In this document: piece after piece, positions 16,031 to 59,761 of the stretch | Numbering within the stretch: the first letter of the stretch is position 1 | How the letters are laid out: every line of letters begins with the position of its first letter | Assembly: GCF_002706425.1 (NCBI RefSeq) | Contig: NZ_CP017713.1 | Location: 1,426,001-1,490,000, forward strand | DNA length: 64,000 nucleotides | Direction: 5' to 3' | Origin: Loigolactobacillus coryniformis subsp. coryniformis KCTC 3167 = DSM 20001 | Lineage (GTDB): Bacteria; Bacillota; Bacilli; Lactobacillales; Lactobacillaceae | The notes under the pieces: model-generated | The model's input: only the letters and a program-made list of their open reading frames with translations | Database searches by the model: none | Told to the model about the DNA's origin: nothing | Program-made: the position numbers and the translations under genes

Positions 16031-16150
16031 GGTTCGTCTTCAGGGCAGGGTGAAATTCCCGACCGGCGGTAATAGTCCGCGACCCATCAATTTATTGGTG
16101 GCCGAATTGGTGTGATACCAATACCGATAGTTAAAGTCTAGATAGAAGAA
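16031..16150 (+). promoter_or_regulatory. FMN riboswitch (RFN element)
   Basis: The aptamer is recognised by the conserved blocks TCTTCAGGGCAGGGTGAAAT, CCCGACCGGCGGTAATAG and AGTCCGCGACCC, followed by the distal TGGTGTGATACCAATACCGA and AGTCTAGATAGAAGAAG. It binds flavin mononucleotide. Here it precedes a transcription-terminator hairpin and the riboflavin uptake gene, so high FMN should switch riboflavin import off. Confidence 0.97.
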
Positions 16151-16185
16151 GATAGGCTTATTTTACGTAATTTAAAAATAAGACT

Positions 16186-31440: not shown

Positions 31441-31450
31441 TTGTCTGGCG

Positions 31451-31561
31451 CCACGTTGCTTGCGGTACGGTTTTTGCTAGAAGAATGATTATCGACCACT
31501 GCAAGTGCAAAATTTATTAGCAGATCTGGCTAAGAAACTGTCATTAAAAGGAGGCTATGTT
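31451..31561 (+). repeat. Leader repeat unit, degenerate single copy before dtd
   Basis: CCACGTTGCTTGCGGTACGG matches the start of the 98-108 bp leader units found before hisS, phoH and era. It continues with TTTTTGCT, GAAGAATG and TATCGACC. A second hairpin is kept (TTATTAGC 31514-31521 with GCTAAGAA 31529-31536) although its sequence differs. The copy ends at the dtd Shine-Dalgarno AAAGGAGG. Confidence 0.7.
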
Positions 31562-35655: not shown

Positions 35656-35788
35656 CTCTTCACCTTCAAAAAATCAATTAATTTCATTATAGCAAATACT
35701 AGGTGCCGAAACAGCAATTTTCGCAATGCTGACTTGACTTTTCGCGATATTTTCGGTAACGTAATTGTGAACTTAATATGACCGATGA

Positions 35789-36013
35789 CAAAGTAAGCTT
35801 GTAGGAAAGGTGTTTCATAGAGAGCGTCAGCTAGGCTGAAACTGACGTAAACACCCCTGCAACATGACACTTTTGAGGTAAAGCCTTGTGCTTTCGCGAA
35901 CAGCGTTATCTGATAAGTGATCAAAATTAAGTTTTTAATAATGGTCAAGTAATTTAAGGTGGTACCGTGCAATCAATGCGCCCTTGTCGAAGACAGGGGC
36001 GCTTTTTATTTTA
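35789..36013 (+). promoter_or_regulatory. T-box riboswitch of hisS-aspS
   Basis: The antiterminator signature AGGTGGTACCG (35957-35967) precedes a terminator with stem GCGCCCTTGTC/GACAGGGGCGC and a T-run (35978-36012). Stem I can be folded: GGTGTTT with AAACACC, TTGTAGG with CCTGCAA, and a base helix ending in CTTTTG. The specifier bulge is CATGACA. By analogy with codon-A-helix spacing the specifier is GAC (Asp), overlapping a CAC (His) by one base. It should sense uncharged tRNA and turn on hisS-aspS. Confidence 0.85.
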
Positions 36014-36417
36014 TTGTGCGCGATTGAAGTAGAGCCATGCTTCTTGCGGTACGATTTTTGCCACAAGAATGGTCATCGTCCGTAACATCAAGGTTAATTA
36101 GTGTTTTATACTAATTAGCTACCTTAGTTGTGAAGTAGAGCCATGTTTCTTGCGGTGACCGAAACGATTTGAGGTGAGGAAACGCAGTTGCGGACTTTGC
36201 AACTACGCTCCTTAAAATTGCCACAAGAATGGTCACTGTTGCTCGTTCTTAACAAGATAGGTTGGTAAGTATTAGCATTTGTGCTTATCTGCTAAACGGG
36301 GCTTGCTTGCCGATGTCGATTGGGCTAGTGTCTAAATACGGCAAGTCCAAGTCGCATCGTCCGTAACATCGGGGCTAATTAGTTATCTTAATTGTGAAGT
36401 AGAAAGGGAGTTTATAC
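36014..36417 (+). repeat. Leader repeat array before hisS (one 106-bp unit, one expanded unit of 264 bp)
   Basis: After the T-box terminator and a fragment GATTGAAGTAGAG, unit 1 (36035-36140) starts CCATGCTTCTTGCGGTACGA. It carries TTCTTG/CAAGAA and TAATTAGT/ACTAATTA hairpins. Unit 2 (36141-36404) starts identically but has about 45 extra bases in the first hairpin loop and about 115 before TCGTCCGTAACATC. It ends TGTGAAGTAGAA at the hisS Shine-Dalgarno. No coding function is evident. Confidence 0.8.
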
Positions 36418-37719
36418 ATGGTTTATCAACGACCAAAAGGGACTGCAGATATTTTGCCAGGTGAATCGGAAAAATGGCAATATGTTGAGCAGACAGCACG
36501 ACAGGTTTTTAGCAATTATCAATTTAAAGAGATTCGAACACCAATCTTTGAAAGTTTTGATGTTTTTTCACGTTCAGTGGGTGATACTTCGGATATCGTC
36601 ACTAAAGAAATGTATGATTTTTATGATAAAGGGAAGCGCCACGTGGTACTACGCCCGGAAGGTACTGCCGGCATCGTCCGCGCCTACGTTGAAAATAAGT
36701 TATTTGGCCCTGAACATCCCAAACCAGTAAAGGTTTATTATATGGGCCCGATGTTCCGCTATGAACGGCCCCAATCTGGCCGGATGCGCGAATTTCATCA
36801 GATTGGTGTTGAGGCTTTAGGTAGTGCTAGTCCAACAGTTGATGTTGAAACGATCGCAATGGCCCTTGGGTTATTTAAAAAAATCGGCATCGGTGGTTTG
36901 AAGTTAGTAATCAATACATTAGGTAATTTAGCCTCACGGCAAGCTTACCGCCAAGCATTGATCGATTTCTTGGAACCACATTTTGCTGAATTAAGCGAGG
37001 ATTCCCAAGTCCGTTTGCACAAAAATCCATTACGTGTCTTGGATAGTAAAGACAAAAAGGATCAGGCAATCGTGGCTGATGCGCCTTCAATTCTAGATTA
37101 TTTGGATGAAGAATCGACTGCTCATTTTACGACAGTTAAGACGTTGTTGGATAATTTAGGTATCGCTTATGAAGTTGATCCCACTATGGTTCGTGGTTTG
37201 GACTATTATAACCACACAATTTTTGAGATCATGTCCAACTCTAAAGCTTTTGGTGGTCAGTATATGACTGTTTGTGCCGGTGGTCGTTATAACGGCTTAG
37301 TTGAAGAAATCGGTGGCCCAGCAACGCCTGGTTTCGGCTTTGGTTTAGGCATCGAGCGGATGTTGTTAGTAATGGATGCAGATGGTATTGAAGTGCCGAC
37401 TGCTAAAGCGCCAGCGGCTTACGTTGTTGGAATCGGCGCTGAAGCAGTACCAACCGTCGTTCAAGTCACACAAGCCATCCGTAATGCTGGTTTTGTGGCT
37501 GAACATGATTATTTAGATCGCAAACCCAAGGCCCAGTTTAAAATGGCTAATCGGTTAAATGCTGAAGTGGTGATCACGATCGGTGAAAGTGAATTAGCTA
37601 CCCAATCAGCACATTTGAAGAACATGGCGACAGGTAATGAAATTACAGTACCGCTTGCAGAGATCGAACAAGATTTTGCAACCGTACTCGCACAAGTAAG
37701 GGGAGAACAACGTGGATAA
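36418..37719 (+). CDS. hisS: Histidine--tRNA ligase
   Basis: Class II synthetase that charges tRNA-His. The 433-residue protein has motif 1-like [13 protein letters not shown], motif 2 [16 protein letters not shown], the histidine-binding [14 protein letters not shown], and motif 3 [17 protein letters not shown]. The anticodon-binding domain lies at the C-terminus. The ATG has AAAGGGAG in front. The last 8 bases overlap the aspS start, forming the hisS-aspS operon under one T-box. Confidence 0.98.
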
Positions 37720-46870: not shown

Positions 46871-46981
46871 GGCTTAAAATACTGGCAGATGCTTTTTTGG
46901 TGCGGTTGTGCTATCATTTTTAATGATAATTACGTTAATGATTTTAAGAAAATAAGCAATGACTATAAATTTGATTAAGCG
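46871..46981. other. Intergenic segment between the yqeY terminator and the phoH leader repeats
   Basis: AT-rich bases without a gene. TTGTGC (46907-46912) and TAATGATAAT downstream could supply a promoter for phoH, but the spacing is not ideal. The leader repeats begin at 46982. Confidence 0.35.
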
Positions 46982-47275
46982 CCATGTTGCTTGCGGTACG
47001 GTTTTTGCCACAAGAATGGCTATCGACCGTAACATCAGAAATTTTTGATACAAAAATTAACCACTATTGTGGAGTAGAACCATGTTTCTTGCGGTATGAT
47101 CTTTGCCACAAGAATGGCTATCGACCGTAACATCAGAAATTTTTGATACAAAAATTAACCACTATTGTGGAGTAGAACCATGTTTCTTGCGGTATGATCT
47201 TTGCCACAAGAATGGCTATCGACCGTAACATCAGAAATTTTTGATACAAAAATTAACCACTATTGTGGAGTAGAA
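46982..47275 (+). repeat. Three tandem 98-bp leader repeat units before phoH
   Basis: Units at 46982-47079, 47080-47177 and 47178-47275 are nearly identical. Each starts CCATGTT(T/G)CTTGCGGTA and ends TATTGTGGAGTAGAA. Each can fold a first hairpin (TTCTTGCGG with CCACAAGAA, one mismatch) and a second (AATTTTTG with CAAAAATT, e.g. 47236-47243 and 47247-47254). The last unit runs straight into the phoH Shine-Dalgarno GGAG. The same family precedes dtd, hisS and era. Confidence 0.92.
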
Positions 47276-47286
47276 GGAGTACGCTT

Positions 47287-48255
47287 TTGGCAGAAGAACA
47301 AGTCGTTAAAGTATTTCGTGTCAGTAGTCCAGAACAAGCTGTGAGCTTGATGGGCACGCAAGATAAAAACCTGAGTTTGTTAGAAGATGGCTTGAAAGTC
47401 ACCTTAAATGCGTTTGGTAATGAAATCAAAATTACTGGGTCTAGTGAAGCGGCTAGTCAGGCTTATGCAGTTTTGACTAATTTGCTCCATTTGCTAGGTC
47501 AAGGGATCGCCATCGGTAGTGAAGATGTTGTGAGTGCGATTAAAATGGCCACCCGAGGTACTTTAGACTATTTTCAGGATCTTTATGCCACTGAATTGAT
47601 CAAAGATCGACGTGGCAAGCCGGTTCGGGTCAAAAACTTTGGTCAGCGTCAATACGTTCAGGCTGTCCAGCACAATGATGTGACCTTTGGTATTGGTCCG
47701 GCTGGTACTGGGAAAACTTATTTAGCAGTGGTCATGGCGGTTGCAGCGTTAAAAAGTGGTTCCGTGGAGAAAATCATTTTAACGCGACCTGCAGTGGAGG
47801 CTGGTGAAAGTCTTGGCTTTTTGCCAGGTGATCTAAAGGAAAAGGTTGACCCTTATTTGCGGCCAATCTATGATGCCTTGTACGATATTCTCGGTGCAGA
47901 GCATACCACGCGATTGATGGATCGAGGCGTGATTGAAATCGCACCACTGGCTTATATGCGTGGACGGACCTTAGATAATGCTTTTGTTATTTTGGATGAA
48001 GCGCAGAACACCACGCCAGCACAGATGAAAATGTTTTTGACGCGGCTGGGCTTTGGGTCCAAAATGATCGTCAATGGGGATGCGACGCAGATCGATTTGC
48101 CGCGCAATGCCAACAGCGGTCTGGTTCAGGCTCAACGCATCTTGCAAGATATTGCACATATTAGTTTTGTTAGCTTTAGTGCCGCTGATGTGGTTCGGCA
48201 CCCAGTTGTAGCTAGCATTATTGCAGCTTATGATGAACAAAGTCGCCAAGCATAA
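47287..48255 (+). CDS. phoH: PhoH family ATPase
   Basis: Predicted RNA-associated P-loop ATPase, 322 residues. An N-terminal KH-like region is followed by the Walker A loop FGIGPAGTGKTYLAVVMAV and Walker B NAFVILDEAQNTTPAQMKMFLTRLG. The start is TTG, seven bases after AAGGAG at the end of the repeat array. It is usually linked to ybeY and era in ribosome maturation clusters, as here; ybeY starts 27 bases downstream. Confidence 0.95.
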   Translation: MAEEQVVKVFRVSSPEQAVSLMGTQDKNLSLLEDGLKVTLNAFGNEIKITGSSEAASQAYAVLTNLLHLLGQGIAIGSEDVVSAIKMATRGTLDYFQDLYATELIKDRRGKPVRVKNFGQRQYVQAVQHNDVTFGIGPAGTGKTYLAVVMAVAALKSGSVEKIILTRPAVEAGESLGFLPGDLKEKVDPYLRPIYDALYDILGAEHTTRLMDRGVIEIAPLAYMRGRTLDNAFVILDEAQNTTPAQMKMFLTRLGFGSKMIVNGDATQIDLPRNANSGLVQAQRILQDIAHISFVSFSAADVVRHPVVASIIAAYDEQSRQA

Positions 48256-49156: not shown

Positions 49157-49446
49157 GGACACAGTACCACGAACATCAGGAATTTATTAGTGTTTTTTGC
49201 TAATAAATTGACCTTAATTGTGAGATAGAGCCATGTTTCTTGCGGTACGATTTTTGCCACAAGAATGGACATCGCCACGAACATCAGGAATTTATTAGTG
49301 TTTTTTGCTAATAAATTAACCTTAATTGTGAGATAGAGCCATGCTTCTTGCGGTACGATTTTTGCCACAAGAATGGACATCGCCACGAACATCAGGAATT
49401 TATTAGTGTTTTTTGCTAATAAATTAACCTTAATTGTGAGATAGAG
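49157..49446 (+). repeat. Leader repeat array before era (2.7 copies, 108-bp period)
   Basis: A partial unit (49157-49230) is followed by full units at 49231-49338 and 49339-49446, which are almost identical. Each full unit starts CCATG(T/C)TTCTTGCGGTACGA and ends TTGTGAGATAGAG. The second hairpin is AATTTATTAG with CTAATAAATT (49397-49406 and 49416-49425), ten perfect pairs. Its sequence differs from the corresponding stems before phoH and hisS. The last unit merges with the era Shine-Dalgarno. No other feature was seen between dgkA and era. Confidence 0.92.
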
Positions 49447-49458
49447 GAGTATTAAAAT

Positions 49459-50364
49459 ATGAGTGAAACAGCATTTCATTCCGGTTTTGTCGCCATTGTT
49501 GGTCGGCCAAACGTTGGAAAGTCGACATTCTTGAATCGAGTTGTCGGCCAAAAAGTTGCTATTATGTCGAATAAGGCGCAGACAACACGAAACAAGATTC
49601 AAGGTATTTATACCACTGAGCATAGCCAGATTGTATTTATTGATACACCGGGTATTCATAAGCCACAAAATAAACTAGATGAGTTCATGATGAACTCAGC
49701 AACTTCGGCGTTAAATGAAGTCGATGCAGTTTTATTTATGGTCAGTGCTAAAGATCGCATGGGCGCCGGCGATACCTTTATTATTGATCAATTAAAAAAA
49801 GTGAAGCAGCCGGTTTATTTGATCGTTAATAAAATTGATACAGTTCACCCCAATGATCTAGCACCATTCGTTGAACAGTACCAAGCTGAATTGGACTTTG
49901 CCCAAGTTTTCCCTATCTCAGCCTTGCAGGGTAACAATGTTGATGAATTGCTGGCGACATTGAATCAGAATTTACCGGAAGGTCCGCAATATTATCCGGA
50001 CGATCAAATCACTGATCATCCGGAGTACTTTGTGGTTTCTGAATTGATCCGCGAAAAGATCTTGGAGCTAACACGTGATGAAGTGCCTCATTCGGTTGCG
50101 GTTAATGTCGAACGGATGCGGCGTAATGATCAAGATAAACTTAAGATCGAAGCAACGATCATTGTCGAACGTGATGGTCAGAAGGGCATTATCATCGGTA
50201 AAGGTGGTAAAATGCTCAAAGAGATCGGTACTCGGGCACGACGTGACATTGAGCACTTGTTAGGTGACAAAGTTTACTTGCAGTTATGGGTTAAAATTGA
50301 CAAGAACTGGCGTGACAATCAGCGCTATCTAAATGAATTAGGTTATCAGAAGAAAAACTATTAG
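49459..50364 (+). CDS. era: GTPase Era
   Basis: Essential GTPase that checks the 3' end of 16S rRNA during 30S assembly. The 301-residue protein has G1 [18 protein letters not shown]3 [10 protein letters not shown]4 VNKIDTV and SAL. The C-terminal KH domain reads [33 protein letters not shown]. The ATG follows GAGGAGT at the end of the repeat array. recO follows. Confidence 0.98.
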
Positions 50365-57854: not shown

Positions 57855-59761
57855 GTGCGCCCGGCATGGGCGTCAACTAGGTGGTGAAAGTCCACTGCGG
57901 GCCGTAGTAGTCGGAACCGCTAGCCAAAGGCAAGGCCTTTATCGTGAGGTGAAGACTGAAGGAAGCCTGATGAGCAAAGTACTGCACCGATGAACAAGAA
58001 GCAGCTATAAGGCCGGAAGTAACTGGATAAGGTGGCCAAACACACTGAAGTCCGATACTACCCGAAGTTACGACAGTAAAGCTGACGGTGACATGGTACG
58101 AAAGTTGACGTTCTTACCCGGGGAGACCTGTACACACAATCCTGATTTTCTTAGGGAATACCCAAATGACAAGGAAATATGAGTTCAAAGCAAGTCAGAA
58201 ATGGCTGGTTAAGTGTACAGGAGTCAGCCGAGGTCATAGTAGTGGGTAACCATGAAGGACCAAACAATAATAACTCATATTGCGACTGGAAGTGAAGACG
58301 ATGCGAAAATCGCAGAAAACAGAACAAGCTGACCGCCAGCGGATGATAGGTCTGGAAGACCAAAGACAAACTGGGGCGCGTAGTATCGCCTCCGGTGAAG
58401 GAGAAAAGATGAGTGGCACTCAGTTTCAAGCATTAGTTTTGGCCCGCAACAACCTGAATTTGGCTTATCAACGTGTGGTCAGGAACAAAGGGGCGGCCGG
58501 AGTTGACGGTATGACCGTTGATGAATTGAAACCGTACCTGAAAGTACATCGCGAAGAATTACTCGCAGAATTGGCCAATGGGACTTATAAACCGGCACCA
58601 GTCAAGCAAGTCTCAATTCCAAAGCCCAACGGTGGAACGCGTAAGCTTGGCATTCCGACCGTGATCGACCGGCTAGTCCAGCAGGCCGTGGCCCAGGTCC
58701 TTTCGCCGATATATGAACAGATCTTCGCCAACAATAGTTTTGGTTTTCGACCCCAACGCAGTGCACATGACGCAGTTCAACAGGTCGTTCAGCTAGATAA
58801 TGCGGGTTATCACTATGTGGTTGATCTGGATTTGAAGGCCTACTTCGATACGGTTAATCATGACATGCTTATGAAGTTTCTCAAGCAGCGAATTAGTGAC
58901 CGCTGGATACTACGGCTCATTCGCCGTTTTCTGACTAGTGGCACCATGAATGGGCAATTGTTTGAACGCAGTGAGAAAGGCACACCGCAAGGCGGGCCGA
59001 TCTCGCCACTGTTAGCGAATATTTATCTCAACGAATTCGACCAAGAACTAGCTAGGCGCGGTCATGAATTTGTCCGTTACGCCGATGACTGCAATATCTT
59101 TGTTAAAAGTCCACGCGCGGGCCAACGAGTCCTCGCTAGTGTGACTCGTTTTCTCGAGCATGAGTTAAAACTCACGCTCAATCAGGAAAAGACACAAGTG
59201 GTCGCCACCAACAGAATGAAGTTCTTAGGTTTTACGTTGGGCCACACTAAAGGCAGGGCTTTTCCCTATCCGGTGTGGTCAGCGAAGCAGCGAGTTAAAC
59301 AAGCATTGAGGCGGCTGACTAAGCGTAATCGTGGTGTATCCGAAGACCAAATAATGGCAGAGATTCGTCAAAAGATGCGCGGTTGGTTGCAGTATTACAG
59401 CTTGGGTAGAATGAAGCGGTTCATCACGGAATTAGATGCGTGGCTGCGGTCACGTATTCGCCAGTACATTTGGAAACAATGGAAGAAAGCCAAAACTAGA
59501 GAGAACAACTTGAGCGGATTAGGATTTACGAAAGATGAAGCTAAGCTATCCGCTAACACGCGTAAAGGGTACTGGCGGACAGCGCATAGTAAAACGCTGT
59601 GCCGTACCCTAACTAACAAAGAGCTGGAACGTCGTGGACTCATTAACTTGAGTCAGACGCTCCAGCAAATTCAGAGTGCTTAAATTATTGAACCGCCGTA
59701 TACGGAACCGTACGTACGGTGGTGTGAGAGGACGGTAACTTACAATTACCTCCTACTCGAT
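57855..59761 (+). mobile_element. Group II intron, class IIC (bacterial class C)
   Basis: The 1907-bp intron starts GTGCGCCCGGCATGGGCG, with GGTGGTGAAAGTCCACTGCG after it. A late domain I block (CTTACCCGGGGAGACCTG) and a domain V/VI region (GAACCGCCGTATACGG, then CGTACGTACGGTGGTGTGAG) follow, ending CTCCTACTCGAT. These blocks closely resemble the structurally studied Oceanobacillus class IIC intron. Domain IV holds a reverse transcriptase gene. Insertion directly after the rpoD terminator stem is the known target habit of class C introns. Confidence 0.95.
58301..59683 (+). CDS. Group II intron reverse transcriptase/maturase
   Basis: Intron-encoded protein of 460 residues needed for splicing and mobility. 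The RT domain runs from about residue 50 to 300, with FGFRPQRSAHDAVQQV, VVDLDLKAYFDTVNHDML, GTPQGGPISPLLANIYL and the active site RYADDCNIF. A maturase X domain follows (KFLGFTLG; MRGWLQYYSLGRMKRF). There is no HNH endonuclease, as expected for class C. The ATG at 58301 is behind GGAAGTGAAG. No stop or frameshift is seen, so the intron may be active. Confidence 0.96.
   Translation: MRKSQKTEQADRQRMIGLEDQRQTGARSIASGEGEKMSGTQFQALVLARNNLNLAYQRVVRNKGAAGVDGMTVDELKPYLKVHREELLAELANGTYKPAPVKQVSIPKPNGGTRKLGIPTVIDRLVQQAVAQVLSPIYEQIFANNSFGFRPQRSAHDAVQQVVQLDNAGYHYVVDLDLKAYFDTVNHDMLMKFLKQRISDRWILRLIRRFLTSGTMNGQLFERSEKGTPQGGPISPLLANIYLNEFDQELARRGHEFVRYADDCNIFVKSPRAGQRVLASVTRFLEHELKLTLNQEKTQVVATNRMKFLGFTLGHTKGRAFPYPVWSAKQRVKQALRRLTKRNRGVSEDQIMAEIRQKMRGWLQYYSLGRMKRFITELDAWLRSRIRQYIWKQWKKAKTRENNLSGLGFTKDEAKLSANTRKGYWRTAHSKTLCRTLTNKELERRGLINLSQTLQQIQSA

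Follow-up and report, generated by a model that had tools for sequence, protein, structure and literature searches.

REP elements, which are associated with RAYT transposases, are intergenic repeats that occur in many copies and consist of a GTAG foot followed by an imperfect hairpin. The pneumococcal BOX element (Croucher et al. 2011) is a structured element built of boxA, a variable number of tandem boxB modules and boxC, of which about 125 are found in one genome. According to PMC3049150, BOX has terminal inverted repeats and is regarded as parasitic, and in one case it adjoins T-boxes. In the same source, the distance of BOX to genes decays gradually, no distance being fixed, and the element is over-represented between convergent genes (PMC3049150).

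Here we describe a family of repeats in Loigolactobacillus coryniformis subsp. coryniformis KCTC 3167 = DSM 20001, found in a stretch of 64,000 nucleotides of contig NZ_CP017713.1 (positions 1,426,001 to 1,490,000; hereafter the window). The repeats are structured, and most of their arrays are placed in sense orientation just 5' of the Shine-Dalgarno (SD) sequence of a gene (hereafter leader arrays). The corresponding sites of related species are often empty, and the units within one array are very similar to each other. A search of the openly licensed literature found no report of such a repeat in Loigolactobacillus or Pediococcus.

Repeat units in the window and their fold

The first-pass annotation of the window had reported related repeats before dtd, hisS, phoH and era, each on the strand of the gene that follows. 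The repeat was present at all four loci (Table 1), above the level expected from shuffled sequences. With up to two mismatches, GCCACAAGAATGG had 9 matches in the window against 1.68 expected, and with up to one mismatch, CTTGCGGTA had 27 against 12.0; none of 100 shuffles reached 9 or 27, respectively. The annotation had given a unit length of 98-108 bp. Genome-wide, however, the period of the units is about 98-112 bp, and the long-form unit of hisS measures about 264 bp, with two insertions, namely an enlarged loop of hairpin 1 and an inserted hairpin domain. The repeats had also been described as ending exactly at the ribosome site, which holds within a few bases but only loosely at dtd.

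Table 1. Positions of the repeat arrays and associated features (window coordinates unless marked as genome)
Feature	Position	Strand	Remarks
phoH leader array	46981..47274	+	three 98-bp units; SD AAGGAG next; TTG start at 47287, 12 nt on
era leader array	49164..49445	+	partial unit 49164-49229 and two 108-bp units; then GGAG; ATG at 49459, 13 nt on
hisS leader array	36034..36403	+	106-bp unit and long-form unit; then AAAGGGAG; ATG at 36418, 14 nt on
Decayed single unit 5' of dtd	31450..31558	+	model match E 2.8e-10; hairpin 1 mismatched; tail without the usual GTAGA
Hairpin 1 of first phoH unit (CCATG...GAATGG)	46982..47019	+	hairpin 1 covaries family-wide
T-box leader of hisS	35776..35988	+	RF00230, E 9.4e-16, 73.1 bits against a gathering score of 93
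Long-form units with extra hairpin	window 36220-36355; genome 1018855, 935128, 863225, 826705, 1704109, 1781800, 2632863, 498570

Apart from chance-level matches to unrelated families, the repeat units had no Rfam family in the window (at the gathering score), in the hisS region (E 1) or at six other loci (E 0.5). The T-box of hisS is an element separate from the repeat array and lies directly upstream of it. This T-box, being below the Rfam gathering threshold, would escape a default scan. The window also contains an FMN riboswitch (16032-16157), the score of which is above the Rfam gathering threshold.

In each unit, a conserved linker (about CATCGTCCGTAACATC) connects hairpin 1 to hairpin 2, and the tail behind hairpin 2 ends in GTGAAGTAG. 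In tandem arrays, GTAG stands directly 5' of hairpin 1 and is thus followed by an imperfect hairpin. The frame of hairpin 1 is constant (CCAT, a 3-nt bulge, a stem and ATGG), and the stem is swapped wholesale between types: CTTGCGG/CCACAAG, CAACTxGGC/GCCxTAGTTG, CTGGTGTGACGG/CGTCCACCAG and CCTGCG/CGCAGG. In long-form units, an extra conserved hairpin (GATTGGACTA...GGCAAGTCCAAGTCGCA) sits between hairpin 1 and the linker. Nine leader arrays carried this domain in a search with one regular expression.

Among 47 ungapped sequences of hairpin 1, 99.5% of the cells pair, and both sides differ in 51 cells, compared with 17.8 in shuffled sets. The covariation score of hairpin 1 was 0.314 against 0.072 for shuffled sets (none of 500 reached it) and at most 0.111 for slid controls, all of these scores being inflated by the relatedness of the sequences. 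Two further measures for hairpin 1, the pairs with a change on both sides and the further pair types, were not above the shuffles. In the first alignment, which comprised 31 close units, hairpin 1 showed no covariation. Since the signal stems from the other stem types, it was seen only in the wider set. For hairpin 2, 102 of the 104 distinct regions had a helix of at least 6 bp, compared with 35 of 104 mononucleotide shuffles, and 73 different arm pairs were counted. The comparison shows that both hairpins of the unit covary strongly, as folded RNA or single-stranded DNA.

Placement of the arrays in the genome

A two-block pattern had 27 exact matches in the genome of the window, and its reversed-pattern control had none. 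A covariance model built from 31 units gave at least 149 matches up to E 1 in the same genome (2.95 Mb), the weakest of which are perhaps chance matches. The matches listed form at least 90 arrays, of which 57 have one match, 15 two, 12 three, 4 four and 2 five.

The sense placement just 5' of the SD, noted earlier for the window, was borne out when checked genome-wide with the covariance model. Among the matches listed, a same-strand ORF of at least 60 codons starts 4-19 nt past the 3' end of the array in 69 of the 85 arrays tested, most often at 11-12 nt; five of the 90 arrays had too little flanking DNA for the test. For comparison, the ORF test is positive at 17% of arbitrary positions in the window, and 3 of the 85 arrays have an antisense start no more than 25 nt away from their 5' end. 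An SD-like motif is present between the array and the start codon in 64 of the 69 leader arrays. One of the 69, array 2882984, was scored as a leader by the script and is in fact a composite (see below), and it was removed from the analyses of 68 arrays. The unit of dtd, the long forms at 132709 and 1018855 and the array at 2309241, all of which the script had listed as 'other', are leaders by eye, giving about 72 leaders among the 90 arrays.

A same-strand upstream neighbour, taken from mechanical ORFs, was found for 51 of the 68 leader arrays, within 100 nt for 34 of them and within 40 nt for 19. Since 34 of the 68 arrays are within 100 nt of such an ORF, many of the spacers look intra-operonic. 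The two-block matches (19 forward below 1.48 Mb and 8 reverse above 1.59 Mb, with dnaA at 346) suggested a strictly leading-strand element, which the covariance-model census did not confirm. In the census, 60 of 69 leader arrays are on the leading strand if the terminus is assumed at 1.56 Mb, and 57 of 69 if it is assumed at 1.475 Mb.

In order to describe the genes behind the arrays, 67 downstream ORFs were scanned with NCBIfam; this set comes from a distance filter, which left out 827611 and 1550218 among others. Eleven of the 67 had no match at 1e-8. By our own count, about 11 of the 67 are linked to translation, tRNA or the ribosome (TruA, PrfA, TypA, RbfA, Dtd, HisS, PhoH, Era, RNase III, RsfS and an ABC-F protein). 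Among the other products are MurF, MraY, MurT, GatD, DnaX, SMC, YabA, Ung, Nth, MutS, ThrC, ArgJ, ArgF, ProA, PduB, two PduO-type enzymes, TrxA, TrxB, Ffh, YidC, transporters and regulators. The first-pass annotation had stated that all downstream genes are linked to translation, which proved to be an effect of the window. A mild enrichment of translation genes among the downstream ORFs, relative to the genome average, is possible.

The effect of the arrays on the SD was analyzed by predicted folding. The SD exposure was 0.456 with the array and 0.437 with the array left out (p 0.36). Masking of the SD by the arrays was discarded because there is no average predicted difference, and for the same reason the insertions could be tolerated. 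When the upstream region was shuffled, the predicted exposure was 0.421, slightly lower than with the array (p 0.008), which could reflect selection for openness.

Empty sites, tandem copies and composites

The leaders of orthologous genes were compared among related species. A sense unit was found in none of the 21 era, phoH and hisS leaders of seven sister species, of which 181-700 nt upstream were scanned. The phoH array was absent from all seven orthologs, three of which have less than 350 nt of upstream DNA, and the hisS array was likewise absent from all seven. No ortholog of era had a sense unit, and one had an antisense copy. Upstream of era in the relative G004 (L214), the antisense copy of the unit is flanked by a different tandem stretch (about CATCCGTCGC...GAACAGGAG), the second copy of which runs up to the SD of era; this stretch is perhaps another SD-linked repeat. 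For 22 further leader genes in four sister species, a detectable unit (E 0.01) was present in 5 of 70 orthologous leaders and was complete in two. The 70 leaders comprise 63 from the relatives G002, G003 and G004 and 7 from G001, and two of 42 orthologous regions, both of proA, were left out.

At six of the 22 genes (trxB, trxA, abcF, mraY, rfbD and the gene at 1744988), the best ortholog has a clean empty site: it agrees with the left flank up to 0-5 nt from the array and continues 10-14 nt ahead of the start. The other orthologs of these six genes are less clean, and the remaining 16 genes have no clear junction. The insertion point lies in or borders the purine tract of the SD, and the SD itself belongs to the host and is retained at the empty sites. 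In filled and empty leader pairs there are at most 1-3 ambiguous purines, and it is possible that 1-3 purines are duplicated at the insertion sites. Since the arrays are missing at most orthologous leaders and the empty sites keep the host SD, the leader arrays appear to be lineage-specific gains.

A short tail-like stretch precedes the SD in the empty leaders of murF, pdp, rbfA, rsfS and typA (remnants by eye), which suggests that loss has occurred too. In other species, a unit or a by-eye tail remnant is located at the same place at prfA, typA, the PPDK regulator, murF, pdp, rbfA and rsfS. Some of the sites therefore seem to be shared and old, which speaks against the explanation that we favor. 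Neither a transposition event nor an enzyme that would move the repeat nor polymorphism among strains was observed, a further point against it.

The identity of units within an array had a median of 97% and a minimum of 83% (59 pairs), and that between arrays had a median of 76% and a maximum of 93% (622 sampled pairs). The difference between these medians suggests that tandem copies arise or are homogenised locally. In L. bifermentans (L128:4895-5077), the 13-nt ATCTCTAAGGAGT, which includes the SD, flanks a two-unit array on both sides, so that the SD itself is duplicated.

A dedicated cis-regulatory RNA leader with tandem units, riboswitch-like or protein-binding, could coordinate a regulon. 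The first-pass annotation had proposed a cis-acting RNA leader, and the sense-only, SD-proximal placement, the strong covariation and the conserved linker agree with that proposal, as does the considerable proportion of downstream genes that are essential or have housekeeping roles, including those linked to translation. The regulon, however, is not borne out. The 67 downstream ORFs share no function, and the units are absent at most orthologous genes and have no Rfam family. The operon-like position of half of the arrays (34 of 68) means that they are not confined to operon starts, and the predicted SD exposure is unchanged on average. We therefore regard a regulon leader as unlikely. A translation regulon in particular was rejected on the mixed gene content and the empty orthologous sites.

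Among the matches listed, 12 arrays of the window's genome sit between inverted arms (hereafter composites). The next ORF is on the opposite strand in 8 of the 12, and 5 of the 12 are located between convergent ORFs. Composites occur in both Loigolactobacillus and Pediococcus, and their unit is flanked by terminal arms that pair with each other; the leader class has no terminal arms. In 14 examples picked by pattern, the fold is multibranched with a long closing stem, and the arms vary among copies and stay complementary. Composites carry 0-2 units matched by a regular expression between the arms, and an array of P. damnosus repeats four. A tandem array of Pediococcus damnosus (L118:5010-5702) has a period of about 200 bp that takes in the unit and the arms, which suggests that whole composites can be amplified too.

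In other species, where the sample was set by the exact hairpin-1 pattern, most copies do not precede an SD. Leaders were scored in binensis (3 of 7 arrays), zhaoyuanensis (3 of 6) and jiayinensis (1 of 12), and none among the scored arrays of Pediococcus (26), backii (9), iwatensis (8) and bifermentans (3); the binensis array L093 and the bifermentans array L128 were scored as 'composite/other' though the SD follows directly after the unit. The SD-anchored sense class is present in the window's genome, binensis, zhaoyuanensis and jiayinensis. In the relatives G003 and G004, 15 of the 22 best-scoring arrays were leaders and 7 were not, a tally that omits two opposite-strand matches on arrays already counted. 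The covariance model matched 8 of 60 relatives, all of one genus, and with stricter filters 18 of 397 genomes of the family in 7 of 40 genera, a patchy distribution. In one genome per GTDB species, the exact pattern was found in 69 stretches, which belong only to six Loigolactobacillus and four Pediococcus species. Plasmids and phages gave no blastn match at E 0.001, and the exact pattern was absent from IMG/VR.

These results bear on two statements of the first-pass annotation. The placement of the repeats had been taken to argue against a mobile repeat, which is contradicted by the empty orthologous sites, the near-identical tandem copies and the composites that do not precede genes. Copies in other orientations or in unrelated regions had been named as evidence against a leader; such copies are seen in the composite class, and the leader class is sense and SD-proximal.

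It is worth noting that the repeats may have been inserted at random between genes, with the SD-adjacent sense copies as the survivors of selection, perhaps because the fold is harmless only there. The composites, which carry the same module to other places, including those before opposite-strand ORFs and between convergent ORFs, are in line with this interpretation. Leader arrays in wide gaps, however, keep their place at the SD: up to 366 nt separate them from the upstream ORF and the 3' distance is constant at 4-19 nt, while gaps at the 3' side of genes should tolerate a repeat equally well or better. Random insertion thus seems improbable to us. The SD anchoring of the leader class is much more precise than one would expect of a tolerated random repeat; this leaves room for function or targeting and also counts against the explanation that we favor.

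Possible origin and comparison with known systems

Judged from the sequence comparisons, the structured repeats are probably a mobile-type interspersed family specific to this lineage, with a BOX-like modular architecture and an SD-anchored leader subclass. The module occurs in two settings. In composites, it is enclosed by two arms, which pair with each other and form a long terminal stem. In leaders, armless units in sense orientation adjoin the purine tract of the SD, and tandem duplication on the spot would have raised their number to 1-5. There, the units would be transcribed as 5' UTR or intra-operon spacer and fold on themselves, leaving the SD about as accessible as before. They would be kept mainly because they are tolerated, possibly with mild locus-specific effects on mRNA stability or translation and with no single regulon.

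A further reading, which we put forward tentatively, is that the repeat homes to ribosome-binding sites. Directed sense insertion at the SD purine tract of genes or mRNAs would then have remodelled about 70 genes of one species, with tandem RNA modules introduced into their 5' UTR or intercistronic spacer.

Mobility at the RNA level, in which the folded RNA would be reverse-transcribed into DNA at ribosome-binding sites, for instance by the reverse transcriptase of a group II intron, appears very unlikely. Sense orientation and SD anchoring would be meaningful at the mRNA level, and group II introns are abundant in the window's genome, which has 20 RVT_1 matches, 13 of them full-length with near-identical scores. 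One of these 13 belongs to a group II intron in the window (57938-59761) with a reverse-transcriptase ORF of 467 aa. RVT_1 had no match, however, in the draft assemblies G001, G002, G003 and G005, of which G003 has the leader class; a group II reverse transcriptase is thus not required as the mover. The 5' ends are irregular in 37 of 68 leader arrays, but retroposition with 5' truncation was dropped because some of these ends belong to long-form units that the model matched only partly; the intact 3' ends are partly built into the whole-unit model search. A REP-like nature of the repeat, with a RAYT or IS200-type Y1 transposase as the mover, is hardly credible, because Y1_Tnp (PF01797), which has matches in 2 of 8 genomes of the genus, has none in the window's genome, so that present-day activity there is largely refuted despite the GTAG and the imperfect hairpin of the arrays.

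Dozens of core genes with a sense repeat near the ribosome-binding site represent a natural large-scale experiment in rebuilding the 5' UTR. The SD anchoring points either to an unknown target recognition or to a strong selection filter, and the filled and empty orthologous pairs make the choice between targeting and selection testable in food bacteria.

The repeats share features with three known systems. Like T-boxes and other cis-regulatory leaders, they are putative structured RNA elements 5' of genes, and a genuine T-box adjoins the array of hisS. Unlike those leaders, the units have no Rfam match and are not kept at orthologous genes. With REP elements, as these are generally described, the arrays share the GTAG foot and the imperfect hairpin; they differ from REP/RAYT systems in being tandem and SD-anchored and in the lack of a Y1 transposase match in the genome. 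The exact hairpin-1 pattern, the only form searched for, was absent from all Streptococcus records of the genome collection. With regard to the architecture described in PMC3049150, the composites are like BOX in that pairing arms enclose modules that vary in number. Among relatives in kind, BOX is the best described; it gathers between convergent genes with no fixed gene distance (PMC3049150), whereas the leader class is SD-anchored, sense-only and without arms.
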